Assembly (NCBI GenBank): GCA_031261165.1
Contig: JAISJU010000086.1
Coordinates: forward strand, 1 to 38,534
Reading direction: 5' to 3'
DNA: 38,534 nt
DNA from: Prevotellaceae bacterium
GTDB taxonomy: Bacteria > Bacteroidota > Bacteroidia > Bacteroidales > Paludibacteraceae
The notes beneath the pieces were generated by a model. That model had not been told where the DNA came from, did no database searches, and was given only the letters and a program-made list of their open reading frames with translations. Positions 3,271 through 38,102 of the stretch are shown one piece after another. The position numbers were made by a program, and so were the translations under genes. Positions within the stretch are counted from its first letter, which is position 1, and each line of letters opens with the position of its first letter.

Positions 3271-4094
3271 TAAAACTTATATTTCACCCCAAAATAATGC
3301 CCATTCTCTTTTATTACATACTGATACTCCGCACCAATATGCCTGTAAAAACAACCGCCGCCGAGCATTAGCCCACTCCGGTCGGTGAGCGAAGTCGAAC
3401 CGCCCAAATAACCCAAACTCAAAAACGGCTCAATTCTTCGGTCATTGAGCGAAGCCGAAATGCGGTTGGTGAGCGATGGTTGGTGAGCGAAGTCGAACCA
3501 AGTCGAACCACGCCCGGCGGTACTGGCTGTTACTATCCGCTGCACCGGCGTAAACTCCGCCGAAAACCGCGTAATCTCATTATATTGAACTGTCGCAAAA
3601 ACAATACATTTCCCCACCGTATCATTATCAATCACCGTCAAGCGATAATCCCGCGCCAAAATATAATCCCTAATCAATGCCAAAGTATCTATTGACTGCA
3701 TAATATACAATGTATCCCGCAATGTCCGTTCGGCGAGCGAAGTGCTGTTAGTTCTGTCATTGCGGGCTTGGTTACTGTTGTCATTGCGGGCTTGGTTACT
3801 GAGCGCAGCCGAAGTATGACCTGCAACCCCCTGCCCAGCGCGGTCGCTGAGCGAAGTCGAAGTGCGGTCGCTGAGCGAAGTCGAAGCGTTCCTAACCCTC
3901 TCAGGCACTTCCACCCTCTCCGGCAATCGTTCCGCCACCACCCTCAAACTATCTTTCGGCAGTTCCACCCTGACAGCAGGCAGCGGCACATAATTCACAG
4001 TTTCGGTAGTTTGCGGGCGGAAATAACAACCGCCCACAAAACCGAAACCAAAAACTAAACCTAAAAACACTATGTAGAAAATTACCTTTTTCAT
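3270..4094 (-). CDS. Membrane-anchored protein in lysis region (possible spanin-like), with many repeat-derived insertions
   Basis: N-terminal hydrophobic segment MKKVIFYIVFLGLVFGFGFVGGCYF; located between terL and endolysin; multiple STSLSDR / GVAGHTSAALSNQARND insertions. Confidence 0.5.
   Translation of the reverse strand: MKKVIFYIVFLGLVFGFGFVGGCYFRPQTTETVNYVPLPAVRVELPKDSLRVVAERLPERVEVPERVRNASTSLSDRTSTSLSDRAGQGVAGHTSAALSNQARNDNSNQARNDRTNSTSLAERTLRDTLYIMQSIDTLALIRDYILARDYRLTVIDNDTVGKCIVFATVQYNEITRFSAEFTPVQRIVTASTAGRGSTWFDFAHQPSLTNRISASLNDRRIEPFLSLGYLGGSTSLTDRSGLMLGGGCFYRHIGAEYQYVIKENGHYFGVKYKF
3380..3515 (+). repeat. Family A mini-element cluster (GAGCGAAGTCGA core)
   Basis: CGGT-core-ACCG, CATT-GAGCGAAGCCGA-AATG, TGGT-core-ACCA copies inside CDS 3270..4094. 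Confidence 0.9.
3756..3888 (+). repeat. Nested element cluster: 24-bp duplicated outer part, 54-bp composite element, two 24-bp units
   Basis: GTCATTGCGGGCTTGGTTACTG at 3756 and 3780; composite 3780-3833; CGGTCGCTGAGCGAAGTCGAAG at 3841 and 3865. Confidence 0.9.
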
Positions 4095-4110
4095 AACTTT
4101 GCATTATTTG

Positions 4111-4156
4111 GTCGCTGAGCGAAGTCGAAGCGTGGTCGCTGAGCGAAGTCGAAGCG
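4111..4156 (+). repeat. Two tandem 24-bp Family A units abutting the endolysin stop codon
   Basis: GGTCGCTGAGCGAAGTCGAAGCGT repeated back to back. Confidence 0.9.
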
Positions 4157-4576
4157 TTAATTCTTAAATTCAAAATGCGGATAATCTTTCATCTTCCAAT
4201 CCCCGCCCCATTCCACATTTACACCTAACCGCTTGGCGGTGGCTTTCACATTGTCGGCTACTTTTTTTAACCCGGCTATATCGTTTATCTCAACGCTATC
4301 TACTACGCCGTTACCGTTGGCATCGCAATAAACATCAACGGCATAGCCCAAACCATCTTTATGTACTTGGTGATTGCTGCGATTGCTTATGCCGTCGCAA
4401 TTCGTTACGCGAAGTCCCGGCTTTGTCCTGCCCTGCGCAAACAACGCTTGCTGTTCAGCAGTTGTGCGCACGCCGCACACTATAATGAAACTTGGGCGCA
4501 TCAATTGCGCCTCCGTCATCACTTTCTTTAAATCGGGGTGTATCCCTGCTAAATTGCTTTCACTTCTTTTGTCCAT
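4157..4576 (-). CDS. M15-family peptidase (VanY / L-alanyl-D-glutamate peptidase-like), probable endolysin
   Basis: HKDGLGYAVDVY and WGGDWKMKDYPHFEF match M15 zinc-ligand motifs; adjacent to small membrane proteins. Confidence 0.85.
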   Translation of the reverse strand: MDKRSESNLAGIHPDLKKVMTEAQLMRPSFIIVCGVRTTAEQQALFAQGRTKPGLRVTNCDGISNRSNHQVHKDGLGYAVDVYCDANGNGVVDSVEINDIAGLKKVADNVKATAKRLGVNVEWGGDWKMKDYPHFEFKN

Positions 4577-4732
4577 TATATTTTAAAGTTTAAAGTTTTA
4601 ATTCTCTCAGGTCTCTATTTTCTCAAAAAGTCCCTATCTGTTATTGAGTTTTTAAATTGAGTTTTAATGAATTTTTATATATGGTTTTCAGTGATTTATA
4701 TTTTTTATTTTATTTAATTACTGAGTTTTTTA

Positions 4733-5002
4733 TTATTCCATTTTCAAACTATTGTTCCCGATTTTCAATTGAATTTTTTTGTTCTCCCGCAATATCTCAA
4801 AGAAATAAAACAGAATAGCCGCAACAAATGGGCTGCAATAGGCAATTAACTGATACAAATTCTGAATTTGCACAAAATTCTCAATCTTTGCAATAATAAC
4901 AGCCACTTGTACTACGCTCAACCCAAATGCCATCATTCGCGCGAAATTCCATTCCCCGCCCGTGCATTTTAGCCATTGCCAACCGTTAAACCAATTCTTC
5001 AT
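4733..5002 (-). CDS. Small two-TM membrane protein, holin candidate
   Basis: 89 aa with hydrophobic segments MAFGLSVVQVAVIIAKI and LIAYCSPFVAAILFYFF; next to endolysin. Confidence 0.55.
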   Translation of the reverse strand: MKNWFNGWQWLKCTGGEWNFARMMAFGLSVVQVAVIIAKIENFVQIQNLYQLIAYCSPFVAAILFYFFEILRENKKIQLKIGNNSLKME

Positions 5003-5253
5003 TCTTTTTTTATTTTTGCCGTACCAAATTTTCCAATGATAATATCGTGAATTTCCGATACTTGCCTTTCGAGTTTTTCAAAGTCCCTGTTTGGAACAAA
5101 CTCTTTCTGAACTTGCAATTTGTGGTCATTTAGTGCCTGTATGGTCTTCGTCAAGTTGTCGCAGTTTGCATTTGCTTTTTTCCAAACAGTACCAATCGCA
5201 ATAATCATTATTGGCAACAATATCATCAATATTACATTTTCTATTGTCATCAT
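4999..5253 (-). CDS. Small single-TM lysis-region protein
   Basis: ORF listed to 5355, but the likely start is MMTIENVILMILLPIMIIAIGTVWKK at about 5253/5250, which avoids overlap with the next gene. Confidence 0.5.
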   Translation of the reverse strand: MMTIENVILMILLPIMIIAIGTVWKKANANCDNLTKTIQALNDHKLQVQKEFVPNRDFEKLERQVSEIHDIIIGKFGTAKIKKE

Positions 5254-5285
5254 AAAATTTTTAGTTGTTATTGTCCTTAATTTCC

Positions 5286-6173: not shown

Positions 6174-6175
6174 TT

Positions 6176-8768: not shown

Positions 8769-8771
8769 ATC

Positions 8772-11528: not shown

Positions 11529-12245
11529 TTACGCTATTTCTGTAAATTTTTGGTCAAGCATCTTTGCCAAATCATATTTCTCCATTGACGTAAGCACTGT
11601 GCTTGCCGTCAAATAAGCCAGCGGCTCTATCAATCGTTCATCAATATCCACCGTGCCTCCTGTTTCCGTTAGGGCTTTTACATTTTTAATGTACAATGCC
11701 GTTTCAATCTCATAAATATGGTCGGTGAGCGAAGTCGAACCGTGGTCGGTGAGCGAATCCGAACCGTGGTCGGTGAGCGAATCTGTGCGCCACATTGAAT
11801 AATAAAACAACACGTCTTTGGGTTTGGTGAGCGAAGTCGAATCCACTATTACCCTCCTTACGCACACCGGACGCTTCCAAGTCCCACGCGTATATTCATT
11901 TGCCTGTCGCGAGTTTATGGCGGGTGTTTCCGGCTGCAATACCAAGCAGGCACTATCCCACCCACGCATCTTAAAAGAAGTCAATACAAGAAAATCATCG
12001 GGCAATACAACGTAACCTGTTCCCTGCGGCTTGTTTTGCACGTGTGGCTGACCGGCAAAAGAATAACTCTTAAAAAAATGACGAGGCAAAACATTTACAG
12101 CCCTGCGCCACGCGGCGGGATATAGGTTTTCGACATACAAGTCTATTTTCACCATATCAGCCCCAATGAGTGTGGCACCGTCTATTACGTTGTCAGCCTC
12201 ATTAAGTATCGTCAAGACGCGCTGTATAAAATCCTGCTTTGTCAT
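11529..12245 (-). CDS. Head-tail adaptor/connector candidate
   Basis: Position between capsid and tail genes; helical N-terminus with AAWRRAVNVLPRHFF; carries three tandem 24-bp insertions (DSLTDHGSDSLTDHGSTSLTDH). Confidence 0.45.
   Translation of the reverse strand: MTKQDFIQRVLTILNEADNVIDGATLIGADMVKIDLYVENLYPAAWRRAVNVLPRHFFKSYSFAGQPHVQNKPQGTGYVVLPDDFLVLTSFKMRGWDSACLVLQPETPAINSRQANEYTRGTWKRPVCVRRVIVDSTSLTKPKDVLFYYSMWRTDSLTDHGSDSLTDHGSTSLTDHIYEIETALYIKNVKALTETGGTVDIDERLIEPLAYLTASTVLTSMEKYDLAKMLDQKFTEIA
11720..11842 (+). repeat. Three tandem 24-bp Family A units plus one isolated copy in adaptor gene
   Basis: GGTCGGTGAGCGAAGTCGAACCGT / GGTCGGTGAGCGAATCCGAACCGT / GGTCGGTGAGCGAATCTG; TTGGTGAGCGAAGTCGAATCC. 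Confidence 0.9.
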
Positions 12246-12314
12246 TTCTTTGAGAATAAAGAATAAAGATTGTCTAATAGTCTATTGTCTAATAGTCTAT
12301 TGTCTAAAAAAAAC

Positions 12315-12827
12315 TCACTCCGCTTTCAAATTCGGAAAATTAACGCCCAATTCTTTAGCCTTTGCCAAAATCTTTTCCGCCGAACTCAAACCGGTGCCTG
12401 TCTTAGGCAAATTATAAGGCTCTCCGCACAACACCTCTTTTGCCTGTGCGAATGTTGTTACGTTTTCAAACGTAGCAGCCGAAGCAGGGTTGCTGAGCGG
12501 CAGTTGCTGAGCCGAAGCAGGGTTGCTGAGCGGCGGTTGCTGAGCGGAGCCGAAGGAAGTCGAAGCACGGTTGCTGAGCGAAGTCGAAGCATCGCCCGCA
12601 TCTTTGCTTTCCACAACTTTTATTTTTCCGTCCAAAAACTGCGCCGAGCCCTCAATAGCCTTTTGCACATTTTCGTCTTTCGTTGAAAATATAGGCTTTC
12701 CAGAACTGTAAGCCGTTCCGTATCCTACGCTAACAAAGGATATCGTTCGTGTGCGACCTCCAATTTCCAATTGAATGGCATACCGCGCTTTTTTGCTGTC
12801 TAATAGATATGTTTTGAATATCGACAT
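12315..12827 (-). CDS. Small head-region protein with repeat-derived insert
   Basis: 170 aa; downstream of MCP candidate; central ASTSLSNRASTSFGSAQQPPLSNPASAQQLPLSNPASA is repeat-derived. Confidence 0.45.
   Translation of the reverse strand: MSIFKTYLLDSKKARYAIQLEIGGRTRTISFVSVGYGTAYSSGKPIFSTKDENVQKAIEGSAQFLDGKIKVVESKDAGDASTSLSNRASTSFGSAQQPPLSNPASAQQLPLSNPASAATFENVTTFAQAKEVLCGEPYNLPKTGTGLSSAEKILAKAKELGVNFPNLKAE
12475..12595 (+). repeat. Rearranged Family A cluster in 170-aa gene
   Basis: Several GGTTGCTGAGCG / CCGAAGCA fragments, ending in an intact GGTTGCTGAGCGAAGTCGAAGCA. Confidence 0.85.
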
Positions 12828-15601: not shown

Positions 15602-15636
15602 GACGTTCAGACATAAGACTAAAAAGTCCATATTTG

Positions 15637-15660
15637 GTTGCTGAGCGAAGTCGAAGCAGT
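15637..15660 (+). repeat. Family A copy between the two rightward genes
   Basis: GGTTGCTGAGCGAAGTCGAAGCA. Confidence 0.85.
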
Positions 15661-16267: not shown

Positions 16268-16308
16268 AAAAAACACCCGCTAAATTTTTGGTTTAGCGGG
16301 TGTTTTCT
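16268..16308 (-). terminator. Rho-independent terminator of the giant gene, also between convergent genes
   Basis: Perfect 15-bp stem AAAACACCCGCTAAA (16270-16284) / TTTAGCGGGTGTTTT (16292-16306), 7-nt loop, followed by a T run on the minus strand. Confidence 0.9.
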
Positions 16309-19300
16309 CATTCCAATTTCTCAAATTCTTTCAATAATCGTTCAGCCTCTCGTTGCAAAGCACCTTCTCCGTTTATATTATTTCTCTTAAAAATATCTTT
16401 TATTTTTTCCTTTGTTTGCGTTAATGATAATTTATCATTGGCGCGAGCATTCCTTATATTTTCTTCTACCGTTTTTATTTTCTCATATTCTGTTATCAAT
16501 TCCATTTTCTTATAACCCTTTGAATTTTTGTCGTCTTTCATTGAATTGTATAAATTCTCATCTCCTTTTTTAAGGTTTCTTATCTGTGTTTTCAAATAAT
16601 CTGATTTTTTCTCTAAATCTATCCAAGTCATTTGTTTTGCATCAAACTCCTTCGGTTGTTTGATGAACACGTTGGCAAATTGCATCTGACTTACATCTAC
16701 TTGTTTGTCCGGATTGAATATCTGTATGCCGAGCGTTACCATATCGGTTACAAATTTTCCTGTCCCCGCGCTATATCCCTCTATTATTGTCTGTATCTTG
16801 CTCGGATTCCAATCATAAATCCACGCTACATCGTCAGCACTGTTATCGGCTCTCAATTTGCTCTTGTTATTAATAGACCCGCCGCCTGCCTGCCACAAGA
16901 CATCAGACAGCCATTGATAGCCTTCCGGCACATTATGTTTCCCTAATGTCCGCTCGGCTTGCGTGTCTTCCTGTTTTTTTAGGTATTCGGTATTATATGC
17001 CGTGCTGCCCGTGAATTTAATATTCATAAAACAGTCCATAATTGGCTGTATTGAGGTTGGCATTATAGCGTGAGCCGTCAGTTTCAACCCTTTTTCGCTG
17101 AATGGTATTACTCGCCCTGTCCGTTCGTCTATTTGTATCAAATTGAGCCAAAATGTTAGTTGCTCAGGCAAAATATTTCCGGCAAAATAATTCGCGCCGT
17201 CAAGCAATGAGGCACTGATGGCTTTTTTGCCTCTCAATGCAAGTCCCGCCTGCGTTCCCAAACCCCAAAAGGCGCGTAATCCCTGAGGCAAAGGTATTTT
17301 TGCTTTTCCGATGCAAATATTCTGCATCAACTCCCATTCGCTAAAAGCGCGGTTGTCATCATCGCCCACAGGTGTGAATAATGCCTGCAATATTCCGCCT
17401 GCAAAGAAACCACCCATTATGCCAACCATCGCACGCCGAACGCGCTTGTCTTTACACATACGAATTATCTTATTAGTTCCCTGAACAGACGCGTTGAAAA
17501 ACGCAAACAGCATATTGAAAGCCTTTGCAAGATTTCCTTTTCTGTCAAAATTGGTCGTTACCTCTTTGGCGTGTATTGCCGCCTCGCGCCGCGTGTATTT
17601 CGGTGTGCCGTCATTGTTCATCTGCTCGCGGCTCGTTACATACTCGGCAAAGCGAGTGGTCAGTTCCGATACTTCCGTCAGCATACCAAAAGTATGTTTA
17701 AGTGCTACGAGCGGATTGCCGTTGCTCGACAATGCCTCTTTTATCTTGTTTGGCTCTATCGATTGCCGCATATCCTCGCGCAACTGTTTCACGTCTTTTA
17801 AAAAACTCCAACCGGTAGCCGCTCCGTCTTCAAAAAATTCCTGCAATAATTGCCCGTATTTCCCTTCCGTAAAACCGCCCTCACCCTTATATTGTTCACC
17901 GGCGGAATATTGCCAAACCGCACCCTGCACCAAACCAATATTTTTCATAAATTGAGCCTGATAACCAACACCAAACTCAGACAGGTTACTGATACTCGCA
18001 ATTCCAAAGTCGCGCACAAAGTTTGCTGCCGCAAAACTCGGATTATACTGTGTCATCATACCGCTCATAAATCGCGTTCCACTACGCAGCAATTCCTCGC
18101 CTTTAATAATAATGTCATTGTCGGTTTGTCTTTCTACCGTAAATTTTCGGTTGAGAACATTTGCCACGCTCTCGCCTGCATATACCGCCTTACCCTCTGC
18201 ATCTGTTCCAAATACAATTACTACTTCCTTTCCGTTTTCCGTAATGCTCACCTCGTGTTGCTTTTGCTCGGCGCGAGTGCGCTCGGCAGGTCTCATTGCC
18301 TCGTGTCCGCTGTATAGCACATTTAAACTTTCACGCAAACGTATTTCTTCATCTACTAAACGTTTTATCGCTGCCTGAAACAGCGGATTAATAGTTTGCG
18401 CTTTGCCCTGATTCCGCAATATCGCCAAGCGTTGATTCTCTCTCTTCACTGTTGCCTCGCGCTCTGCTGTAATCTTCTGCAATGCCTCGCGGGTTTCTTT
18501 GTCTTCTTTTATAGATGTATTACTCGGCTCTTTGGTCGTGCGCTCGTAAATTATTTTCCCCGATAAATCTGCGCCGTCCGCATCGGTATAACGCTTTGGA
18601 TTGCCGTTTTCGTCATACGTCTTTACATAATACACATTTTTAAATGTAAAAAAATTGTTTTGGCGAGCAAAATCTTGATTTTTGCGGGCAAATTCCAAAA
18701 ATACGCGCTTTGTCTCATTTTTCAAACAAGACATCACCGTACTTTCACCAATACTCTCCATATACGCCAGCGGGTCGCCCGCAAGCGTAGTCCTGCCTTT
18801 CGCTTTTACCAACGCCGCATTGAAAGGATTATCGGGCGTATCGCCTTTTTCCGATACATAAAAACCTTTGTCATCTATCAAATCGCGCTCGCGCCAACCG
18901 CGCTGCGGAACGTAGTATTCGCGTGTCCCGTCTGTATATTTGTCATAAGTGGCTTGGTCTATTATGCCGTACTTCAACTGCATATCCAATGCCCACCTGT
19001 TGGCTGACCGTACTTCGTCCCAAATCTTTTGTATTTTTTTATCGCCCAAAATGCGTTCAAATTCACTGATAAATGTTTCCGGCTCAACGGCATTCCCATT
19101 CTCGTCTTTCACATTGTTTCTAAATCCCTCCGCGCCACGCTCTACCAAACCCAACTTGTCTGCTTCAATAATATCTTTTGCCTGTAAATACAGACTTATT
19201 TTATCGTAATTTCCTACCGGCTTATTATTTATTACCTCACCCAAAGCATTTTCTACGCGCCATTTATATGCCGGCATCTTGTTTAATTTCTTGCTTTCTA

Positions 19301-22300
19301 CAACGCCGCGTAATAACTTTTGCAGTGGCTTGATATGTTTTTGTTTATATTCTTCAATCAAATAAGTAGCGCGGCTTGTGGAAGTAATAATATCATCATA
19401 AGCATTGGTTTCGCTCGTGAGTTTCGCGCCTTTTTCTACCATTAATTTTATGTATTTTTCCAGCGGATAACAGCGGTCAATAAATGCCTTATTAAATTTC
19501 AAACGCTTTTTCATTTCTTTATCCACGTCAGCAAGCGTTTGGCGCGTTTCATTATTAAATTTATTAATTTGTTCCACAATATCTATCAATGACATATTTG
19601 GCGTTATCTTCGGCGGCTTGGGTATGGCTGGCTCAACAAATGAAAGTTCCGTGTCTTTTTCCCATTTATCTATTTGTTTGGCAAATTCATTAATCGGCTG
19701 TCCTGTGTATTTCGGCTTTGGTGCCGCAGGCGCACTCGCCGCCATAAACCGCAGCCCTGTGTCCCTATTGTCCCCCCTGTCCCCCAAATTATCATACAGA
19801 AATATCTGGTCTTCACGCGCCACATCTTCTGTTTCTTCCGCCAAACTCGCGCGGCGTTCTTCGGTGGTCATATTCATACGAGCGGAAACATTACGCGCCT
19901 CTACTTCGCCCGATGTTTTATTGTAACTATCCTGCGGAAAATACTTTTGTTTCTGTCTTGCGCGGTAAAAATCTTCCATAATATCAAACATCTCGTTGCG
20001 TGATATTTCCCCTGTTTTTGCTTTTTGCGCAATGCTAATTATTTCGGGCGTTTTAAACCGTTTCGTTGGTAGAGAGATAAACCAATCCACAAATTTTTTA
20101 CGCGAATTTGATTTATCGTGTTCTGCGTATAAATCTGCGTATTCCTGTATATGCGCAGGCAAAGGCTCTCTAATCCCCTCAAAATATTTTGGATTACTCC
20201 CGTGAGCAAAACCCTCATCTTCCTGTATGTAGTGCTGTATTTCGTGTGCTATAATACCCCTTATTTCATTTAAGTTTTTTTCGGTAATTCCGGCAAAGTC
20301 GCCATCTTCCGTAAACTTTGTTGTAAAATTTACTTCAATCGTGTTTTTATTCCTGTCAAACCGACCGTTATACGATGGCGGTAAAAAAAGCGGGCGCGGC
20401 ATTATGTTTATTGTGGTTTCTGACAACTTAGGAAAAGCCTTTAATAATTCCGTATCTAAAATTATATCGCGTAAGTTACCGCTGTATTCCCCATTACTGT
20501 CTATTTTACTTGCATCAATGTTTATCGGCTCTGTTTCATACCGCCACTTCCCATCAGCCCCACGTTCCCAGCCGGTAGCCAACTTTATTTTTTTTGCAAT
20601 TTCTTTCTCATTTATTTGCAGGATTGAAATTAAACGCTTATCTTTGTGGTCAGAAACAACCTTATTGTTGTCAAGCGAGTTTGGTAATCGTGTAGCATCA
20701 ATGAGGTTTTTCTTTTCTATCAGCGTTAATTCGTGGTCATAATAATAACTGTCGCCCTTTTTCCCAACAACCATTTTTACGGTATAATCTTCCCCGCCTA
20801 TTTTCATACCCGATACATAATACCGATAACTGTCATATTTTCCGTTTTCTTTTGTATTTGGCTCTTCTGTTATAAAAATAGAAGTTTCAATAATTTGTGG
20901 TATTGCAGCAATAGATTTCAAGTGGGCATCGTCGCGCTCTCCGTGAGAAGTTACCTCATTTGCTCCCACGCGAGAAACTCTTATTGTTTCGCCTGTGTCT
21001 TTATTAGTGTAATCATTGCGCAAATGTTCTTTGATATACTCTTTTGCCGACTTGGGGTTTAGTTCATACTTCCCTTTGTATTCCTCCCCTGTTATCTCTA
21101 TCGGCTCGCTCGCTTTCAACTTTTCAATCCGCGCTTTCTTTTCGTCAAAAGCCGTTTCCATATCCCGCGCCACCGCCAAATTATCCAGCCGTGTAGTCGC
21201 CTCTTCCGCACGGTCTAAATTTGCCGCGCCCTGTTTGCCAATAAACTGAAACTGAGTACCATTTTTAGTTTCAGCCTGCGCCGCCCCACCGTCATTGCGG
21301 GCTTGGTTGCTGAGCGAAGTCGAAGTATGACCCGCAATCCCCTTATACTCCGCAAACGGCTTAACTCGCCGCCCATCAGCCTTAGCCCAGTCCCTAAATG
21401 TTTCCACATCAGTTTCGGTAATATTCCCTAACCCTTTCCAACCCTTCTCATAATTCGACAAATAAGCCGCCCGCGCCTCTTCCAAACTGTCAAACCCAAA
21501 CATCACCTTATGCTCATCAAAAGTCCCTTTTGTCCCATCAGTCCCTGCTTTATTTTGGTCAATCACAAAAACTTTCCCACTCAAAGGATTATCCCCCAAG
21601 AAAACATCAATATGGTCGCCGTCCCGCGATTCCGTATTGCCAAAATAACCATAAGTATTGTGCATTTTACTTTCCCAAGCCTTACCGTTTTCATCAACGC
21701 CGCGCCGCACACTCCCTTTCGGCTGCTCAATAAAAATATCAAAGCCCTGAATTTTCACGTGTCCCTTTCGGTAATTTCCCGCCTCTTTCTGCGCCTCTGT
21801 CGGGTTAGTATCCGTTTCGGCTTCCGCCGCCGCAATCTTATCCTGCAAATCCTTTAATTCTGTGTCATTGCGGGCTTGGTTGCTGAGCGCAGTCGAAGTA
21901 TGGTTGCTGAGCGCAGTCGAAGTATGACCCGCAACCCCCTGTTTAATTTCTTTCCCGGAGAGCAAATCCGCCGCCGCCCCATTCACAAACTCATCAAGCG
22001 ACAAGTCCTGTATCTGATTACTGTTAAGGTTGCGAATACCCGCATATTTTCCGATAAACTTCCAAACATCATTCAACCACGCCTTAATCTGCGCCCATTT
22101 CGTTAAAGATAAACTGAGGGGTCTTTGCAATAACGCCTCACCCCTGTCGCCTATCGCCGTTGCCAATGCCTCGCCGATTTTCTCGCGCTCACTTATTTTA
22201 GCGTAATAAGGATTGTCGGCTAAATTTTTGTAATAGTCGGTATCTTTTATAAGTTCCGCGCCGCGCTCGTACAATTCAGAGTTGTTTTGCTCAATAAAAT

Positions 22301-25300
22301 CTACCCACAAATGCCCAAACTCGTGTATCGGCGTGTTGGCGTTCAACAAATTTTTGTCAATCCACATATCTTTGCCGTCCCGCGTAACAAAGCCGTAAAT
22401 TTCGCCTTTCTTGGTGGCAAGCATACGGATATTACTTATTATTTCAATATTATCTTCATTTCTTACTACAACTTGTTTTCCTTTTGGTATTCCGTAGCCC
22501 TCGTGATTAACAATGTATGCGCTTGCATCGGGATATTTTTCATTTATATATTGTTCTATTATATTTCCAAAACGCTGATAATTGCTTTTTGTAACATTTG
22601 GCTTTTTGTAATTTTCAAATTCTTGTGCTGTTTCTTTTATTTTTTCTTTAATGTACGGTATTAAATTTTCATCTGTTGTTAAATCAATAATTTGTGCATC
22701 GTCTTTTAATTTAAACCTTACAATAGAATTAGCACCGGTTGAATAATATTCGCGCATTTTAGAATTATTAGCAGGATAAGCATAAATTCCTTTTCCTGCC
22801 TCACCGTTTGCTTTTGTAAAACCGTATTCTACATCTTCTCTTGCGCCTCTTTCAAATAAATTTTTTACAAAAAACCGAAAATATTCCTCATTTATTTTTG
22901 GATTTTCAAAATTTTGTATTACCTTTGCAGCACGGTTGTAAAGGTTTCTCACCTCAGCGGAATTGTACCGCTGTTGAGAAAACCATACAGCCATTTTTTG
23001 TTTGTCGGCATATTCTGTCAATCCCTCGTCAATCCAATTTGCAATATGCGCGTTTGAAGTTCTGTAATGAATGCTGCGTATATCATTAATTTCAATATTT
23101 CCCTTTTTCCTATTTGCCTCAATAGCAACAACAAAGTTTTTTCCCTTATGCTGTATTTCTGTCAGCACAACATAACTTCCAATGTGCGTTGCACTGCGAA
23201 ATACTGCCAAAGGCTGTTGTATTGCCTGTGGCAAATTCTCTATTTCCAACAAATCAAAGGGGTGGTTTTCCTGCATTGATTTGTCGGATAAGCGGCTCGC
23301 TGCTAACTCGACAGGCAAATTCGGTAAGCCCGCAGCCTGCAATATTGCGCCCGCATTACCAAGTTTATAAATATGTCCTGCGGGTAATTTGCTGACAATC
23401 TGCTGTTGCAATTCCGCATTAAACGCCGCATTTACCTTACTCAACTCCGCCATCTCCGCCATTGCCAAATAACCACCCTCGCCGAGTTTCTTTTCAGCAT
23501 AAGCCCTGTCGGTATGCAATGTGCCTTTAAACAGCCCTGTTTGCCGCAACAATCCCACAAGCCGCTCAAACGCTTTATCACTTATTTTTTGCAGGCGGGC
23601 TTGCGGATTGTTGTGAAACAAAGTCCCCTGCGCATTAAAAGCATCACGCGCCGCCCGTACCTGCGCCGTCTTACCCGCCCGCAAATCCGATACCTGCTTT
23701 TGCAAACCCTTTATCTCCGCTTTCAGCGTAGCAGTAGCGGCACTCTGATTACCCCGCGACACATCGGCGGAAACATCAAACAAACTCATTGTAGGATTAG
23801 TAAAGAGTTTTTGCTGTCGTTCTTCCGCAAACACCCTGTTAATGTGTTCCACTTCCTGCTGCCGCTCTTTTATGCCATTCTCCGCAGAACTTATCTGTTT
23901 ATCTATCTCGGCGGCTCGCAACTGTCCCGCTTCATTGGCGGATTTAGGCGTTACACCGTTTATCTGAAATTTCGGCGCGGTATTTTCGTTTCCACCGTCA
24001 TTCTCATTCCGGTTGCTGAGCGAAGTCCGGTTGCTGAGCGAAGTCGAAGCATCTACCAAATCCCACTCATTATTAAAATCATATCCCGCAGGGCGATAAA
24101 AATTCTCATTCACAAAACGCAACTCTTCATCTGTTAGAACTTCGCCCATCGCCATTTTATCTTCGAGCGTAGCAGTCATTATTTCTTCAGGCGTCAATCC
24201 ATATCGCTCTGCCAACTCCGCCTGCCGATTTTCAAATTCAGCATTAAGCCGTGCCGTTTCTTCTGCCAAACTTGCTTTATCCGCAGCCGATTTCTTCTCT
24301 GCATTCTTGCGGAACTCCATAATAACCGGCATTAATTCCTCTTTCAGTTTGGCATTTTCATTGATTAGTTGTTTAGCCTCATTTTCCTCTTTCGCAGATA
24401 ATTTATTTTTACGAGATTTTATTTTCAACTCCCGTAACTTTTGGTTGTTTTTGTTGATTTTTTCCGTTTTTTCTTGCACACTTTCAGAATTTGCCGTATC
24501 TTTGCCGTCAGAAACAGCATCGGGGGCGACAGCCCTGCCCCCATAATTGCTATCAGGGGTTAATGGGGTGTTAGCAGATGCTGTTTTTTCTTCTACTGTT
24601 TTGCTGTTGTCGAATGCAGTAAGTACCCAATTTTTACCATCTTCCGAACGAGCAACCACAACCCTGTATCCATCTTTATCTATTCTTGCGTTGTTATTAT
24701 TTTGAATAGTAACAATTCCATTTTCAACAACATCTTCAATTACTTCTGCCGCTTTTTCTAAACTTTCAAAATCGTTCTGCCTGTTAATATGCTTGTCTAT
24801 AATTTTCTGTAATCCCTGTTTTTCATTACCCCATATTAAATCTATATCGCCTATCTCGTTTCTGTGAAATACACCCAACAGGTCGCCGTTTTTTATTTTT
24901 TCCAAAAATGTAAACGCCTCTTTCGCTTTCCCCTTAAATTGGTCATAAATATTCCCAAACGCGCCTTTACCTATCGGCTGTGGCTCGTTATTGTCCTTAA
25001 AGTCCCTATTATCCTTAATTCTATCAACTCCCGTAAAAACCTGCCCCAGCCCATTCAACTTCAACACATCAATAAGCACATCGGCAGGCACGCGCTCGCC
25101 AAACATCGGCACGCCACCCCGCGCCTCATCGCGCACAGAGTTATTATACTCCTCAAAAATCTTCCGAAGTTTAGCCGTTTCCCGCTTGTCGTCAATCGCC
25201 AAAGCCATTGCCAAATTAATGGCTTGGTCGCTGTGTGCGCCGTTCAGTATATCTTGCTGCCTGCCCTCTATCTCCACGTGCACACCACTCGCATTAGCCG

Positions 25301-28300
25301 CCGTTACTATCTCTATCGCCTCGCTCAAATAATCCGTAATATCAAAATTTAAAGTACCGTCATTGCGGGCTTGACCCGCAACCCCCTGTGTGCCGCTGTC
25401 ATTGCGGGTTTGACCCGCAATCCCCCCAAAACTCCTGTTTTCAATTATCTGCGGAATGGCTTTAAAAATAACAGCCTTTTGCGTTTCATTAAATTTCATT
25501 ATTTGCGCAATGTCGGCGGCTTTACCCTGAAATGCCGCGCCCAGCATCGCCGTTTCGAGGAAGTCGCGCCCCGTTCCGGTCATTGTACCGTTTTCATTCA
25601 CAAATTGCGCAATATCGGTATCCTGTATCACGCCCTCGTTTCTCAAGAAAGACAATATTTCAGCCGTCCGTTTCGGGTCATTGTATATTTCGCTCAGATT
25701 ATCAATGTCATTCAGATAACCGGCAATATTATTCACCGTTACGGTATTTAATGCCTTACTCTGCGCTTTTGCCTTTTCGGTGGTTGATTGCGATTTTTTC
25801 TCATCGGCATTGAATTTTTTGAAATTCGCCGTTGTCAATTCAATGGGGCTGTCCGGCACGAATACAATGCGCGGGTGCTCAAACTGCCCCACCTGTTCCG
25901 GCGTAAAGCCGTAGTTACGCCCATATTTGCCAATATATTCGTTATACGCGCCGTCTGTGTCCTGCTGCGCGGCTATCTGTCCCGCCATTGTCCTGCCGTT
26001 ACCGCTTACTGTTACGCCTGTTGCACCATCTACCACAATGCCTATTGCGCCCCTGTCAAAATGCTGCGCCATACCGATAGTTATTTCCTGCGCCGCTTTG
26101 TCGTTCTGATAATCGCGGTCATTCACATTCTCTCCGCGCTCGTTGGTGGGGAAACCCGCCGTGCTTGCAAAATTATTGTTCACATCGTGGCTCGGCGTAA
26201 ACGCACCCTGTTCGGTCAATACATACTTGCCCGGTATTACCTCGCCGTTGGCAAGCCTCATTTCATCGGCATTGCCCTCTATTTTCGGCGCATCATTCCA
26301 ACGCGCCACAATACCGGCAAAGTCATCACCCGTTACACTCCCCTGCTCACCAGCCGCACGGCGTTCATCGCGCTGCTGTATGCGGGTTTGCATAGCCGCC
26401 TCACTATCAGCGCGTTGCTGCTTCACAAGTGCGGAATTTTCTATATAATTGTCATAAACGGCTTTGTTTTCCCGCAAACGGGCTATCTCTTTTATGCCAC
26501 TTACCGTTTTAGGCTGTTTGCTCAAAGCAGTTATTTTATTGAAAATATCTCTACTTTGTTCTTTGGCAATATCCAAAATATCCGATTCTTTCAAACCCTC
26601 ATACTCAGCATATCGTAGTTGTTGCTCAGGCGACATCTGTTTCTCATCAGCATTACCTCGCCTGTCGGTGGGCAAACCCTCATAAAACGCCTGCCGTTCC
26701 TTATCAACATCACCGTCATTATCAACACCGCCATCATTGCGGGCTTGGTTACTGAGCGGAGCCGAAGTATGACCCGCAACCCCCTGTGCCCCACTGTCAT
26801 TGCGGGCTTGGTTGCTGAGCGAAGTCGAAGTATGACCCGCAACCCCCTCTTGGTTAGAAGCATCAGGAAACAAATTTATAATTTCCTCTTCCGAAGCCTT
26901 CCACGGAACAACATCGCCATTATTCGTGATTATATCCGTATTATAAGTCCCATCAGCATTCCTGCTTTTCACCCTTATTCTCCCATCAGCATTCTCAAAC
27001 TCCTGTCCCGACAAGTCAACATTTGGCGTGTCTTGTGTCTTGGCTCTTGGCTCTTGCATCTCATTAATATACTGCGCTATCTCCACATTCTCAGCACCAA
27101 TCTGCTCATCTATCAACGCATTTTCCGCCAAAACAGCATCATATAAACTCGTCTCATTGTCTATTGCCCTTATCTTCTCGCGAGCAACCGGCATTACCCG
27201 CGGCTGTCCCGTCTCCTCGTCTATGCTGCCGTCACGGTAATACACAATCTCGTCGCTTCCCTGCAAGTCCGGTATAACGCCACCGCTTTCTTCACGCGAT
27301 GTGCGCAAACCGCTCACTATCTCTACCGGATTATCAACGCCCTCTACCTGCGCCGTAACGATTGTGCCTGTCGTCTTGTTTGTGCGGGATTGTAGCCGCT
27401 CGGCAGTCTGCTCACGCCGAGCGTTAATATTCTGTTCACGCCGCGCCGCTGTTTGCTTTGCCAAATTCGCAAACTGCATATAATTCAACACAGACTGCTT
27501 CTGCTCAGCAGACAAAGCCGCATCGGACATCACCGTCAAAGCATACTCTTTCTGCTGCTCAACCGGCAAATCTATTATTTGAGGATTAAACGTAAATTGA
27601 CCGTTCAAAGAGCGTTGCATATTGTCAAACGCCTGCTTGCTCGTGATTTGCATACTGGCAATATTCTCCGGCGACAAGTCGAAGTCTTGCGGTAATTGTG
27701 GATTTACTGCTTGGGATATTTGGGCTTCGCGCTCGGCAGATTGTTGATTTCTTAAATTATGGTAGCCAATTGCCGTACCAATGCCCTGACCGCCAACGCT
27801 CACGGGACCTGCGCCTGCAACTCCATAAACAAACGCATCGCGGGTGCCATCCCAAATACTGCCGTCTTTTTTTACGCCACTAATTTTGTCTATTATGTTT
27901 TCACCCGTATTCGATATGATTTCTTCGCCACCTTCGCCAGCCATTCCTAAGACCGTATTCACTGCCGCCTGACCAAATAACTTGGCGGCAGCGCTTTTTC
28001 CCACCTTGCCAATTATGTTTTTTACTAATTTGGTATCTAATACACCACCCGCTCTTTCAGATAAATATTCTATCAATCCGGTAAATCCCGAATTAAGCAA
28101 CATAGCCTCTTCGCTCATTTCCGGATTGTTTTGTTTTAGTTGCTCATATTTTTGATTGGCAACATCAATATATATTAGCGGCGCGGTGTAGGGGTTCATC
28201 GCCATTAATGTGCTCGGCGCACTTTCCAAACCTTTATTTAATGCCTGATTGACAGCATCAAAGTGTCTTCCCTCTTGCCATAAGTCTGAATAATCTTTCG

Positions 28301-28874
28301 GAACTGTATTGCCGTTTTCATCTATTTTTGTGCCATAACGTCTATTGGCGTGCGCAGAAATCCTGTCGGAAAGGTCTTTGCCTTTGTTATATATCTCTCT
28401 TGCGCTTGCTTCTAAATTTTTTCGTTGCTCTTCTAATGGCGGAGCACCGGTAGACATATCATAAGCCATATTGGTGCCTCCACCCATAGCCAAAGGTTTA
28501 TAAACACTGGAATTGGCGGCTTTCATAAGGAAATTTCCCAAACTGTTTCCCGTTCTCACAACGCCGCTGGCTAAACTCTCAGCACCTTCAATAACTCTTT
28601 CGCCAACAGCCTTTTGTAATACGCCCGGCTTAAAGGCATAATCCCAAAATGTAGGGTCGTCAAAATAACCCTTTTCTTTATCAAAACCCAATTTTTGATT
28701 ATATGTTGTTTCATCACCTAAATCGAAATTATGCGCAGTAGCAACATTAAATAGTTGCTTGCGCCTTGCCGGGTCTTGAATATTTTTTTCAAATGTCGCA
28801 TAATCGCCAACGTCAAAATTATTTGCCGTCAAAACGTCGTGCATTCTTTTTGCGTTTTCTTTATTTAGTCCCAT
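16308..28874 (-). CDS. Giant 4188-aa phage polyvalent protein (ParB/DdrB-like, MuF/PBECR-like, ART-like, metallopeptidase, inorganic-pyrophosphatase-like and LPD-type regions)
   Basis: Motifs: GIVVDGATGVTVSGNGRTMAGQ (DdrB/ParB-like); TEIQHKGKNFVVAIEANRKKGNIEINDIRSIHYR (MuF-C/PBECR-like); GKGIYAYPANNSKMREYY (ART-like); TPIHEFGHLWVDF and IIAHEIQHYIQEDEG (HExxH); ESRDGDHIDVFLGDNPLSGKVFVIDQ (InPase-PolyVal-like); TRFMSGMMTQYNPSFAAANFVRDFGIAS (LPD38-like). Confidence 0.85.
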   Translation of the reverse strand: MGLNKENAKRMHDVLTANNFDVGDYATFEKNIQDPARRKQLFNVATAHNFDLGDETTYNQKLGFDKEKGYFDDPTFWDYAFKPGVLQKAVGERVIEGAESLASGVVRTGNSLGNFLMKAANSSVYKPLAMGGGTNMAYDMSTGAPPLEEQRKNLEASAREIYNKGKDLSDRISAHANRRYGTKIDENGNTVPKDYSDLWQEGRHFDAVNQALNKGLESAPSTLMAMNPYTAPLIYIDVANQKYEQLKQNNPEMSEEAMLLNSGFTGLIEYLSERAGGVLDTKLVKNIIGKVGKSAAAKLFGQAAVNTVLGMAGEGGEEIISNTGENIIDKISGVKKDGSIWDGTRDAFVYGVAGAGPVSVGGQGIGTAIGYHNLRNQQSAEREAQISQAVNPQLPQDFDLSPENIASMQITSKQAFDNMQRSLNGQFTFNPQIIDLPVEQQKEYALTVMSDAALSAEQKQSVLNYMQFANLAKQTAARREQNINARREQTAERLQSRTNKTTGTIVTAQVEGVDNPVEIVSGLRTSREESGGVIPDLQGSDEIVYYRDGSIDEETGQPRVMPVAREKIRAIDNETSLYDAVLAENALIDEQIGAENVEIAQYINEMQEPRAKTQDTPNVDLSGQEFENADGRIRVKSRNADGTYNTDIITNNGDVVPWKASEEEIINLFPDASNQEGVAGHTSTSLSNQARNDSGAQGVAGHTSAPLSNQARNDGGVDNDGDVDKERQAFYEGLPTDRRGNADEKQMSPEQQLRYAEYEGLKESDILDIAKEQSRDIFNKITALSKQPKTVSGIKEIARLRENKAVYDNYIENSALVKQQRADSEAAMQTRIQQRDERRAAGEQGSVTGDDFAGIVARWNDAPKIEGNADEMRLANGEVIPGKYVLTEQGAFTPSHDVNNNFASTAGFPTNERGENVNDRDYQNDKAAQEITIGMAQHFDRGAIGIVVDGATGVTVSGNGRTMAGQIAAQQDTDGAYNEYIGKYGRNYGFTPEQVGQFEHPRIVFVPDSPIELTTANFKKFNADEKKSQSTTEKAKAQSKALNTVTVNNIAGYLNDIDNLSEIYNDPKRTAEILSFLRNEGVIQDTDIAQFVNENGTMTGTGRDFLETAMLGAAFQGKAADIAQIMKFNETQKAVIFKAIPQIIENRSFGGIAGQTRNDSGTQGVAGQARNDGTLNFDITDYLSEAIEIVTAANASGVHVEIEGRQQDILNGAHSDQAINLAMALAIDDKRETAKLRKIFEEYNNSVRDEARGGVPMFGERVPADVLIDVLKLNGLGQVFTGVDRIKDNRDFKDNNEPQPIGKGAFGNIYDQFKGKAKEAFTFLEKIKNGDLLGVFHRNEIGDIDLIWGNEKQGLQKIIDKHINRQNDFESLEKAAEVIEDVVENGIVTIQNNNNARIDKDGYRVVVARSEDGKNWVLTAFDNSKTVEEKTASANTPLTPDSNYGGRAVAPDAVSDGKDTANSESVQEKTEKINKNNQKLRELKIKSRKNKLSAKEENEAKQLINENAKLKEELMPVIMEFRKNAEKKSAADKASLAEETARLNAEFENRQAELAERYGLTPEEIMTATLEDKMAMGEVLTDEELRFVNENFYRPAGYDFNNEWDLVDASTSLSNRTSLSNRNENDGGNENTAPKFQINGVTPKSANEAGQLRAAEIDKQISSAENGIKERQQEVEHINRVFAEERQQKLFTNPTMSLFDVSADVSRGNQSAATATLKAEIKGLQKQVSDLRAGKTAQVRAARDAFNAQGTLFHNNPQARLQKISDKAFERLVGLLRQTGLFKGTLHTDRAYAEKKLGEGGYLAMAEMAELSKVNAAFNAELQQQIVSKLPAGHIYKLGNAGAILQAAGLPNLPVELAASRLSDKSMQENHPFDLLEIENLPQAIQQPLAVFRSATHIGSYVVLTEIQHKGKNFVVAIEANRKKGNIEINDIRSIHYRTSNAHIANWIDEGLTEYADKQKMAVWFSQQRYNSAEVRNLYNRAAKVIQNFENPKINEEYFRFFVKNLFERGAREDVEYGFTKANGEAGKGIYAYPANNSKMREYYSTGANSIVRFKLKDDAQIIDLTTDENLIPYIKEKIKETAQEFENYKKPNVTKSNYQRFGNIIEQYINEKYPDASAYIVNHEGYGIPKGKQVVVRNEDNIEIISNIRMLATKKGEIYGFVTRDGKDMWIDKNLLNANTPIHEFGHLWVDFIEQNNSELYERGAELIKDTDYYKNLADNPYYAKISEREKIGEALATAIGDRGEALLQRPLSLSLTKWAQIKAWLNDVWKFIGKYAGIRNLNSNQIQDLSLDEFVNGAAADLLSGKEIKQGVAGHTSTALSNHTSTALSNQARNDTELKDLQDKIAAAEAETDTNPTEAQKEAGNYRKGHVKIQGFDIFIEQPKGSVRRGVDENGKAWESKMHNTYGYFGNTESRDGDHIDVFLGDNPLSGKVFVIDQNKAGTDGTKGTFDEHKVMFGFDSLEEARAAYLSNYEKGWKGLGNITETDVETFRDWAKADGRRVKPFAEYKGIAGHTSTSLSNQARNDGGAAQAETKNGTQFQFIGKQGAANLDRAEEATTRLDNLAVARDMETAFDEKKARIEKLKASEPIEITGEEYKGKYELNPKSAKEYIKEHLRNDYTNKDTGETIRVSRVGANEVTSHGERDDAHLKSIAAIPQIIETSIFITEEPNTKENGKYDSYRYYVSGMKIGGEDYTVKMVVGKKGDSYYYDHELTLIEKKNLIDATRLPNSLDNNKVVSDHKDKRLISILQINEKEIAKKIKLATGWERGADGKWRYETEPINIDASKIDSNGEYSGNLRDIILDTELLKAFPKLSETTINIMPRPLFLPPSYNGRFDRNKNTIEVNFTTKFTEDGDFAGITEKNLNEIRGIIAHEIQHYIQEDEGFAHGSNPKYFEGIREPLPAHIQEYADLYAEHDKSNSRKKFVDWFISLPTKRFKTPEIISIAQKAKTGEISRNEMFDIMEDFYRARQKQKYFPQDSYNKTSGEVEARNVSARMNMTTEERRASLAEETEDVAREDQIFLYDNLGDRGDNRDTGLRFMAASAPAAPKPKYTGQPINEFAKQIDKWEKDTELSFVEPAIPKPPKITPNMSLIDIVEQINKFNNETRQTLADVDKEMKKRLKFNKAFIDRCYPLEKYIKLMVEKGAKLTSETNAYDDIITSTSRATYLIEEYKQKHIKPLQKLLRGVVESKKLNKMPAYKWRVENALGEVINNKPVGNYDKISLYLQAKDIIEADKLGLVERGAEGFRNNVKDENGNAVEPETFISEFERILGDKKIQKIWDEVRSANRWALDMQLKYGIIDQATYDKYTDGTREYYVPQRGWRERDLIDDKGFYVSEKGDTPDNPFNAALVKAKGRTTLAGDPLAYMESIGESTVMSCLKNETKRVFLEFARKNQDFARQNNFFTFKNVYYVKTYDENGNPKRYTDADGADLSGKIIYERTTKEPSNTSIKEDKETREALQKITAEREATVKRENQRLAILRNQGKAQTINPLFQAAIKRLVDEEIRLRESLNVLYSGHEAMRPAERTRAEQKQHEVSITENGKEVVIVFGTDAEGKAVYAGESVANVLNRKFTVERQTDNDIIIKGEELLRSGTRFMSGMMTQYNPSFAAANFVRDFGIASISNLSEFGVGYQAQFMKNIGLVQGAVWQYSAGEQYKGEGGFTEGKYGQLLQEFFEDGAATGWSFLKDVKQLREDMRQSIEPNKIKEALSSNGNPLVALKHTFGMLTEVSELTTRFAEYVTSREQMNNDGTPKYTRREAAIHAKEVTTNFDRKGNLAKAFNMLFAFFNASVQGTNKIIRMCKDKRVRRAMVGIMGGFFAGGILQALFTPVGDDDNRAFSEWELMQNICIGKAKIPLPQGLRAFWGLGTQAGLALRGKKAISASLLDGANYFAGNILPEQLTFWLNLIQIDERTGRVIPFSEKGLKLTAHAIMPTSIQPIMDCFMNIKFTGSTAYNTEYLKKQEDTQAERTLGKHNVPEGYQWLSDVLWQAGGGSINNKSKLRADNSADDVAWIYDWNPSKIQTIIEGYSAGTGKFVTDMVTLGIQIFNPDKQVDVSQMQFANVFIKQPKEFDAKQMTWIDLEKKSDYLKTQIRNLKKGDENLYNSMKDDKNSKGYKKMELITEYEKIKTVEENIRNARANDKLSLTQTKEKIKDIFKRNNINGEGALQREAERLLKEFEKLE
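21291..21344 (+). repeat. 54-bp composite element in giant gene
   Basis: GTCATTGCGGGCTTG-GTTGCTGAGCGAAGTCGAAGTATG-ACCCGCAATCCCCTT. Confidence 0.95.
21864..21941 (+). repeat. 78-bp composite element with two tandem 24-bp inner units
   Basis: GTCATTGCGGGCTTG-(GTTGCTGAGCGCAGTCGAAGTATG)x2-ACCCGCAACCCCCTG. Confidence 0.95.
24009..24054 (+). repeat. Family A, 18-bp partial plus 24-bp unit, in giant gene
   Basis: CGGTTGCTGAGCGAAGTC followed by CGGTTGCTGAGCGAAGTCGAAGCA. Confidence 0.9.
25359..25427 (+). repeat. Two 30-bp outer elements lacking the inner 24-bp unit (empty form)
   Basis: GTCATTGCGGGCTTGACCCGCAACCCCCTG (25359-25388) and GTCATTGCGGGTTTGACCCGCAATCCCCCC (25398-25427). Confidence 0.95.
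26733..26849 (+). repeat. Two 54-bp composite elements in giant gene
   Basis: 26733-26786 and 26796-26849, both with inner 24-bp unit. Confidence 0.95.
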
Positions 28875-31743: not shown

Positions 31744-31780
31744 TTCGGTTGCTGAGCGTAGTCGAAGTAAGTCGAAGCAT
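31744..31780 (+). repeat. Family A copy abutting the 867-aa gene stop codon
   Basis: CGGTTGCTGAGCGTAGTCGAAGTAAGTCGAAGCATTC. Confidence 0.85.
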
Positions 31781-34384: not shown

Positions 34385-34409
34385 TATAAAAAAAAATGTC
34401 TATTATCTA

Positions 34410-34497: not shown

Positions 34498-34540
34498 CCA
34501 TCTGCGCCGCCACTTCCGGCGGCAACTGCATTGCGCTCAT

Positions 34541-36421: not shown

Positions 36422-36471
36422 TTTTTTGACTTAAAATAAAAAACAAAAAACGGCTTTTTTCGCGGCTTTTG

Positions 36472-36545
36472 TTTCCCATAAATATAATTTCTGCAAGAGG
36501 CTGTCTGTTCGACTGTCTATAATAAACCGCCAAACCTTATCTTTG
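36472..36545. promoter_or_regulatory. Divergent regulatory module 2
   Basis: TTTCCCATAAATATAATTT (36472-36490) plus TATCTTTG (36538-36545, TAnnTTTG box). Confidence 0.55.
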
Positions 36546-36567
36546 CACAATAAAAAATTCGGTCATA

Positions 36568-36960: not shown

Positions 36961-37004
36961 CAAACGTAGTCGAAGTACGGTTACTGAGCGATGGTTCCTG
37001 CTTT

Positions 37005-37220
37005 TTAGGCAAATTTCAATTCAGGTTTTACCTCATTCACCAGCAAATCCCCCTTATCCGTTCCCCAGCAATGGCTCTTGCCCGGCACGCGGTACAGGTA
37101 AAGAATTTCATTACGAAACGCCTTACACCCCAAGTATTCAAACTTAACCGCCGCCATTTTCTCCGCGCCGCCCCTCTGTTCAAAAACAGCACCCGGCGAC
37201 AATTTCCTTAACTCAATCAT
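37005..37220 (-). CDS. Small hypothetical phage protein
   Basis: 71-aa intact ORF with codirectional neighbours. Confidence 0.45.
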   Translation of the reverse strand: MIELRKLSPGAVFEQRGGAEKMAAVKFEYLGCKAFRNEILYLYRVPGKSHCWGTDKGDLLVNEVKPELKFA

Positions 37221-37230
37221 AATTATTATT

Positions 37231-37285
37231 ATTAAAAGTCTTGTGTCTAAAAGTCTTGTGTCTTATGTCTAAAAGTCTTCCGTCT
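37231..37285 (+). repeat. Short-period TCTAAAAG/TCTTGTG tandem repeat
   Basis: AAAAGTCTTGTGTCTAAAAGTCTTGTGTCTTATGTCTAAAAGTCTTCCGTC. Confidence 0.9.
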
Positions 37286-37595
37286 GTATTTCAATCACCG
37301 TTTCCTCACCGCTATCTTTCAGCATTTTCATTTTCAGCAACTCCTGTATTTTCTCATACAGAAAATCCGACAAGTTACAGCCATCTTCCGCATTCTCTAT
37401 TTCATACAAAGCCGATGACACATCTTTAGTCAGAAACCGCAACCGCTCAACCGCGCGTTTCATCTCGCTCAATTTCTGCTTTTCCTCGCGTTTAAACGAA
37501 TAACCTGCTTTCTTCAACTGTGCTTCCGCTTCCACAGTTGCCACATCGGCGCACAAATACGCCAAATTAGTGTAATAAAGTGCTTTTGTATTCAT
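37269..37595 (-). CDS. Hypothetical phage protein
   Basis: 108-aa intact, helical ORF; stop codon supplied by a tandem repeat. Confidence 0.5.
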   Translation of the reverse strand: MNTKALYYTNLAYLCADVATVEAEAQLKKAGYSFKREEKQKLSEMKRAVERLRFLTKDVSSALYEIENAEDGCNLSDFLYEKIQELLKMKMLKDSGEETVIEIQTEDF

Positions 37596-37652
37596 AGCAT
37601 ATTTATAATTAAAATCATTTCAAATAATAAGTATTTTTGTATTCATATTGTT

Positions 37653-37835
37653 TTAATTTTTTGTTTTTAAATATTCCTCCAATACTAAACCGGGCTCTTT
37701 GTAAACTTGAACCCAATATGCGGCAGCATTGAATGTGTCAATCAATATTGCCTTAATTTCAGAATCCATATCCAATCTCCTCAACCTTAAATATGTTTCT
37801 GCTACTTCTGTTGTTGTTTTTTTATCTACAAGCAT
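37653..37835 (-). CDS. Small hypothetical protein
   Basis: 60-aa ORF MLVDKKTTTEVAETYLRLRRLDMDSEIKAILIDTFNAA. Confidence 0.4.
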   Translation of the reverse strand: MLVDKKTTTEVAETYLRLRRLDMDSEIKAILIDTFNAAAYWVQVYKEPGLVLEEYLKTKN

Positions 37836-38062
37836 AATTAATTATTTTATTATTTGTTTATTTCTGTTCTTTACAAATAAGCAATCCCGCCTATTTGCTA
37901 TTTAATTCATTGAAAACTAATCACTAACAACTAAAAACTAACAATTTCTTTTTACCTTACTTATAGGCGCGTGCCGCGCCTTACTGCGTAAGGTGTAACA
38001 CAAGTTAGACGCGTTTTCCGTTTGGCTCTAAAAAAAAACGGCATTTCAGCCGATACATTCCG

Positions 38063-38102
38063 GTGGGTGAGCGAAGTCGCGGTGGGTGAGCGAAGTCGAA
38101 CC
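38063..38102 (+). repeat. Family A partial plus full copy in noncoding right end
   Basis: GGTGGGTGAGCGAAGTCGC GGTGGGTGAGCGAAGTCGAACCCC. Confidence 0.9.

Follow-up and report, generated by a model that had tools for sequence, protein, structure and literature searches.

A 24-nt REP-like hairpin unit nested at the loop centre of its own copies and in other palindromes of a Bacteroidales genome

The repetitive extragenic palindromes (REPs) of the REP-associated tyrosine transposases (RAYTs), together with the REPINs, carry a tetranucleotide (GTAG or GTGG) at the foot of a hairpin, reach high copy numbers with compensated stems, form inverted dimers, lie mostly outside genes and are flanked by a tnpA_REP gene (PMC2817692, PMC6006769, PMC3116915). 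The CGTC-tagged REPs are palindromic mini-elements without a dedicated transposase, present in Bacteroidetes and Spirochaetes among others, some of them intragenic and including RPE-4 and RPE-6; they have a CGTC, TGTC or CCTC head, a stem of 8-9 bp that starts with AT, a 4-5 nt loop and a CCA tail (PMC3733652). The Rickettsia palindromic elements (RPEs) stand in frame within protein genes, housekeeping genes included, and some insertion sequence (IS) elements, e.g. ISPpu9 and ISPsy8, take REP palindromes as their preferred insertion target (PMC1525189). Here we compare these systems with a 24-bp palindromic unit of a Prevotellaceae bacterium (Bacteroidales; assembly GCA_031261165.1, contig JAISJU010000086.1). 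The window, i.e., the whole stretch of 38,534 nt that was analysed, is a prophage contig within a genome of 3.04 Mb in 225 contigs. Beyond the dispersed element with a constant core and a covarying stem that the first-pass annotation of the window had described, we find that the units nest within one another and within other palindromes, and this nesting is their most informative feature.

The unit begins with a CGGT or TGGT head (48 and 26 in this genome), followed by a 4-nt variable arm, the 12-nt core GAGCGNAGYCGA and a complementary 4-nt arm, the last base of the first arm being nearly always T. Its length of 24 bp, as first annotated, is borne out in three ways: tandem units are spaced by exactly 24 nt, filled and empty palindrome sites differ by exactly 24 nt, and sequence conservation drops immediately beyond the 24 nt. 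The core has 21 exact copies in the window against 0.01 expected from dinucleotide shuffles, and 23 copies with at most one mismatch against 0.83 expected; the window copies are on the + strand only and span 3387 to 38099. The annotation had spoken of about 30 copies or fragments, a total that comes close once split halves, truncated copies and fragments are added, and the seven arm pairs that it listed (CGGT/ACCG, CATT/AATG, TGGT/ACCA, CGCT/AGCG, TACT/AGTA, TGCT/AGCA, GGGT/ACCC) are all found in the window. Collecting the copies over the whole genome, as it had proposed, yields 125 + 105, or about 230, versus 1 + 1 for a reversed control. The genome is examined through the stretches around the copies, of which 118 are read with their flanks. 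Rfam 15 gives no match in the window at the gathering score. Two sibling cores of the same design, GAGCYTGTCGA and GAGCCTGCCGAAG, are seen at G000:C22:2412, L110, L149 and L168. At locus L032 (G000:C72:16411-17319) the units alternate in inverted orientation in an array of about 88-bp repeats, with 13 copies within 1 kb.

We turn to the nests, in which a unit occupies the exact centre of the loop of another unit, between GAGCGN and AGYCGA. Four of them were found in this genome without preselection, at window positions 3463-3510 and 12520-12567, at L005:1411 and in L032, together with a remnant in the window at 31746-31779. In all four the loop is split after base 6 and the orientation is kept, and L005:1411 shows three levels, a unit inside a unit inside a further palindrome (palindrome A, below). 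A scan of genome contigs for GAGCGN, a YGGT unit and AGYCGA in direct succession returns at least 114 stretches, of which 80 are listed. The listed stretches come from about 50 assemblies, mostly of Bacteroidota (Flavobacteriaceae, Bacteroidales, Algoriphagus, Lacihabitans), with further carriers in the Spirochaetota (Spirochaetaceae and Treponema), UBP14 and the gammaproteobacterium Agitococcus lubricus. While position and orientation in these pattern-selected nests are partly given by construction, this does not apply to the four nests of the genome itself. Among 112 distinct nests the outer arms are fully complementary in 88 and the inner arms in 80. Deeper nests occur at L085, L142, L159, L162 and L172. 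We find no published description of self-nesting at the loop centre in open-access full texts (PMC), and the core letters as a query give nothing either. The sibling core GAGCYTGTCGA is likewise found nested in loops. The loop is open to other hairpins as well: in L072 (-690) the centre of a unit's loop holds a different hairpin, CCGCCTGCGGCAGGCAGGG, of 19 nt.

Could such nests arise by local copying? In the stringent set the inner arm differs from the outer one in 80 of 98 nests, and simple local duplication is therefore excluded; the two are identical in the other 18. A broader proposal is that no dedicated enzyme is involved, that replication template switching and gene conversion spread the palindromes, and that hairpin-templated repair keeps the arms complementary. 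Quasipalindrome correction could maintain such complementarity, the 18 nests with identical arms are as expected from local copying, and no enzyme has been found. A nest would, however, require two jumps at exact points with no homology at the outer joints, and the proposal also has to meet the differing arms of the other 80, the one split position shared by the nests of this genome and the filled sites that are exactly 24 nt longer. We regard it as quite improbable.

The units also occupy the loops of palindromes of other families. Palindrome A, mostly GTCATTGCGGGCTTGACCCGCAA, has 188 sites in this genome. Of the first 100 listed, roughly one in six is filled, being exactly 24 nt longer with a unit between GCGGGCT and TGACCCGC. 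Palindrome B, GTCATTGCGAGGAACGAAGCAATCC, exists in an empty form, in which GTCATTGCGAGG joins AACGAAGCAATCC directly, versus a form holding a 25-nt unit (CGGTGCATT...AATG). A unit with the sibling core GAGCCTGTCGA lies reversed in the loop of palindrome A at C22:2412. For both A and B the empty form is abundant. Empty sites are thus demonstrated within the genome by the palindromes, and in relatives by the gene for RF3 (below). At the tips of flanking palindromes that had not been recognised as such, units show no excess, with 2 of 36 against 2.0 in shuffled sequence for this genome and 6 of 40 against 2.1, inside the shuffled range, for other genomes. The arrangement in the window is as follows.

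3379..3402, + strand: unit with arms CGGT/ACCG
3439..3462, + strand: unit with arms CATT/AATG
3463..3510, + strand: self-nest, with host halves at 3463-3476 and 3501-3510 and the inserted unit at 3477-3500, at the loop centre
3780..3830, + strand: palindrome GTCATTGCGGGCT...TGACCTGCAACC with a unit in its loop at 3793-3816
3841..3888, + strand: tandem pair of units with 24-nt spacing
4109..4156, + strand: tandem pair of units with 24-nt spacing
11719..11786, + strand: array of three tandem units, the second with a mutated core (GAGCGAATCCGA) and the third truncated
11821..11844, + strand: degenerate unit with arms TGGT/ATCC
12477..12591, + strand: cluster of a self-nest (unit 12534-12557 inserted between host halves 12520-12533 and 12558-12567) and then a unit at 12568-12591, with nest fragments upstream
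15635..15658, + strand: unit with arms TGCT/AGCA
16308..28874, - strand: gene of a 4188-aa polyvalent phage protein, with six units antisense to it, all outside its Pfam domains
21291..21340, + strand: palindrome A with one unit (21304-21327), within the 4188-aa open reading frame (ORF)
21864..21940, + strand: palindrome A with two tandem units (21877-21924), within the 4188-aa ORF
24010..24051, + strand: truncated unit and then a complete unit (24028-24051), within the 4188-aa ORF
25359..25425, + strand: two copies of palindrome A, both empty (loop without a unit)
26733..26845, + strand: two copies of palindrome A with one unit each (26746-26769 and 26809-26832), within the 4188-aa ORF
31746..31779, + strand: unit with an extra right half (AGTCGAAGCA), a nest remnant, intergenic
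38061..38103, + strand: truncated 19-nt copy and a complete unit (38080-38103) with arms GGGT/ACCC

Apart from these, the window has a perfect 15-bp tandem duplication, ATTGTCTAATAGTCT, at 12269-12298.

With these features in hand, the unit can be compared with the known systems. It is like the RAYT REPs in its tetranucleotide at the hairpin foot, its high copy number, compensated stems and inverted dimers, and it differs in its head, in self-nesting at the loop centre, in lying within ORFs of at least 200 codons for 60 of 121 sampled copies, and in its flanks, which hold no tnpA_REP gene, the sole exception standing beside a broken Y1 gene in genome G042 (L189/L193). With the CGTC-tagged REPs it shares the lack of a dedicated transposase, as judged from Y1_Tnp genes alone. 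Palindromes A and B (YGTCATTGC...GCAAT, with a CGTC or TGTC head) resemble the CGTC type, and the core GAGCGNAGTCGA occurs in TGTC-headed elements of some genomes such as G062. In the unit itself, however, the head is YGGT, the stem measures 4 bp and the structured core 12 nt, and the unit is inserted in loops both of CGTC-type palindromes and of its own copies. As in the RPEs, palindromes stand in frame in protein genes (here RF3, MutS and others), and the unit is set apart from the description of the RPEs by its 24-bp size, its occurrence in other phyla and its nesting; the classical RPE-1 is larger than 24 bp. Whereas the REP-targeting IS elements are complete insertion sequences that encode a transposase of their own, the insert here is itself a 24-nt hairpin. 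Since its head is that of neither REP superfamily and the flanking gene is lacking, we file the unit as a variant of REP-like palindromes that is a member of neither.

The next question is whether the hairpin is what has been conserved. Across 49 distinct units from this genome, pairing holds in 98.0% of the cells versus 69.2 +/- 2.1% after shuffling (none of 500 shuffles as high), 68 cells are changed on both sides versus 20.2, and the covariation score is 0.862 versus 0.263, with slid controls at or below 0.321; the shuffles correct only partly for the shared ancestry of the copies. A search that places no constraint on the arms gives full pairing in 37 of 51 units from this genome (shuffled mean 4.0, maximum 11) and in 75 of 104 from other genomes (mean 6.0, maximum 15), and the fully paired arms comprise 15 types in the former and 22 in the latter. 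The covariation that the first-pass annotation had put up for testing is therefore strong. It had named a phylogeny of a few ancestral copies as what would overturn its view, and this is not supported, in view of the 15 and 22 paired types and the 80 of 98 nests with differing arms; common ancestry as the cause of the covariation is unlikely, given the diversity of arms inside one genome. Within the core, GC-GNA-GY (N free, Y being C or T) can make a small inner hairpin, whose inner pair, G-C or G.T, is kept in 49 of 49 units. The sequence GCGNAGC is an unusually stable DNA mini-hairpin. On the unit strand the distinct arm pairs of this genome include G.T, and A.C mismatches are absent there, which is consistent with the unit strand being the folded one.

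The sampled copies in long ORFs are antisense in 35 cases and sense in 25. As 24 is a multiple of three and five of the six frames can be open, insertions add 8 residues without breaking the gene. The frames are used unevenly. A single antisense frame (S-T-S-L type) accounts for 33 copies and a single sense frame (V-x-E-R-S-R type) for 19, so that 52 of the 60 fall in two of the five open frames; both are hydrophilic, and the bias to them suggests that insertions yielding harmful peptides are later lost by selection. The annotation had held that a hairpin, in DNA or RNA, rather than the encoded peptide is selected or copied. The first part stands on the arm covariation, on copies that are intergenic, in unrelated genes and both sense and antisense, and on the exact 24-nt blocks in loops; the frame bias shows that the peptide is not irrelevant. 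In RF3 two units make a net insert of 14 residues, which is absent from 12 of 12 relatives examined and from solved RF3 structures, and palindrome A contributes another insert, of about 13 residues. MutS has one in-frame insert encoded by a unit, at a stretch where the E. coli MutS is shorter. In the 4188-aa phage protein the units are near residues 681, 702, 1608, 2317, 2325 and 2516, and none falls within any of the Pfam domains found. At L026, L027 and L012 (-1569), several long ORFs that resemble one another share a unit site (CCGGTCAGTGAGCGCAGTCGAACTG) close to the C-terminus, and this site has apparently spread with the domain.

We next consider the phage context. The window encodes an integrase, a P22-like portal and MuF/polyvalent domains, and units are about 8 times as dense in it as elsewhere in the genome (21 versus 2.7 expected, P = 1.5e-12). 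IMG/VR holds no close relatives of the window portal, the nearest portals, of Bacteroides phages, being about 33% identical. This similarity and the many carriers among the Bacteroidota both point to a host of that phylum. All units of the window (21 of 21) are antisense to the direction that prevails among the genes, as are 9 of 9 in L298, from IMG/VR, and 5 of 6 in L299, two viral contigs picked by their unit pattern; a translated comparison of L298 with the window shows no homology except the units. The bias is absent from the chromosomal copies that lie in ORFs (25 sense versus 21 antisense). The antisense bias in phages would fit a replication-linked preference for one single strand, or it may reflect selection. 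A replichore strand bias in single-contig genomes was considered and rejected, as the full lists show the strands mixed and often paired. The prophage enrichment and the antisense bias, together with the conserved core and pairing, can also be taken to mean that the units are binding or processing sites of the cell, for RNA stability, a nucleoid protein or phage control, whose number and pairing are explained by selection rather than mobility. Copies scattered in unrelated genes, in nests and in tandem arrays speak against such a role, as does a patchy distribution in which most relatives have 0-1 copies, and we consider it very improbable.

We favour, with moderate confidence, the reading that the unit is a non-autonomous, REP-like mobile DNA hairpin of exactly 24 nt, moved by a trans-acting enzyme. 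It is a discrete 24-nt block in which the arms vary in sequence but stay paired, and it is inserted in loops, including its own centre, and in frame in conserved genes; from these properties we infer movement as single-stranded DNA. According to this model, YGGT would act as a guide-like head, and a trans-acting nuclease or transposase would recognise the head together with the folded hairpin and cut at the hairpin foot. The cut unit would then be joined to single-stranded DNA, either at the tip of a hairpin loop that has been extruded or elsewhere. By the likeness of head plus hairpin, an HUH (REP-type) nuclease would be the favoured enzyme class, with no Y1 gene linked to the unit.

Several observations weigh against this reading. 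Mobility is read from sequence patterns. Most filled copies of palindrome A have common arms, and they may for this reason derive from one insertion, the composite then spreading. There is no target consensus at the non-nested sites outside hairpin loops, and the predicted folding of a single unit is not unusual (z about 0.2 to 0.4 with standard DNA parameters, which may miss GNA mini-hairpins). The genome has four Y1 genes, and no unit lies within roughly 1.5 kb on either side of them; the Y1_Tnp loci of six other copy-bearing genomes are equally without units nearby, save for the G042 case. The 30 best relatives of the 2.6-like Y1 protein described below have no unit in 103 kb, and genome G061, with 18 head-plus-unit copies, has no PF01797 match.

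The last two of these points also count against a more conventional solution, in which a Bacteroidota RAYT (TnpA_REP subclass 2.6 or 2.4) moves the units, these being its ordinary REPs apart from an unusual head. A tetranucleotide with a hairpin is the REP architecture, some units form inverted dimers, and the genome encodes proteins bearing the motifs of both subclasses; subclass 2.6 genes, mostly of Bacteroidetes, are on record as being surrounded by atypical secondary structures, and those of subclass 2.4 as containing REPs inserted in frame (PMC6006769). The subclass-2.6-like gene of this genome (L003:1240-2330; motifs NHLH, FWQ and YIHNNP, compared with Table 1 of PMC6006769) has, however, palindromes of another family on its flanks, GCGTAGGTTCTACCTACGCC and CACACCGATTGCAATCGGTGTG, which are probably its own REPs. 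Over 297 genomes the copy number of the core does not track the subclass-2.6-like gene: several genomes with 4-8 such genes hold 0-1 cores, and several copy-rich genomes hold none of these genes. G252, with 5 head-plus-unit copies, likewise has no PF01797 match, so some present-day carriers lack a Y1 enzyme, though they may have lost it in the past. G062 (L268-L297), a single contig with no PF01797 match in the genome, has 192 TGTC-headed copies of the core (TGTCATCCTGAGCGNAGTCGAAGGATCT), largely as inverted pairs 43-44 nt apart and not of the YGGT type. A RAYT-mediated REP is thus supported neither by the flanking genes nor by the genome distribution, and we find this solution unlikely. Tentatively, one may instead think of a site-specific system not described so far, in which an enzyme other than the known REP (Y1) transposase would place a 24-nt single-stranded DNA hairpin into the apices of hairpin loops, its own included, in several phyla.

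The nested insertions serve as a fossil record, in which the length of the unit, its target and its orientation are fixed without experiments and the tips of hairpins are revealed as the target. They constrain any mechanism for the spread of REP-like palindromes that lack a known transposase, an open question in the work on the CGTC-tagged REPs (PMC3733652). For the organisms that carry the unit, the blocks of 8 residues added to conserved proteins such as RF3 and MutS affect both gene models and protein evolution.

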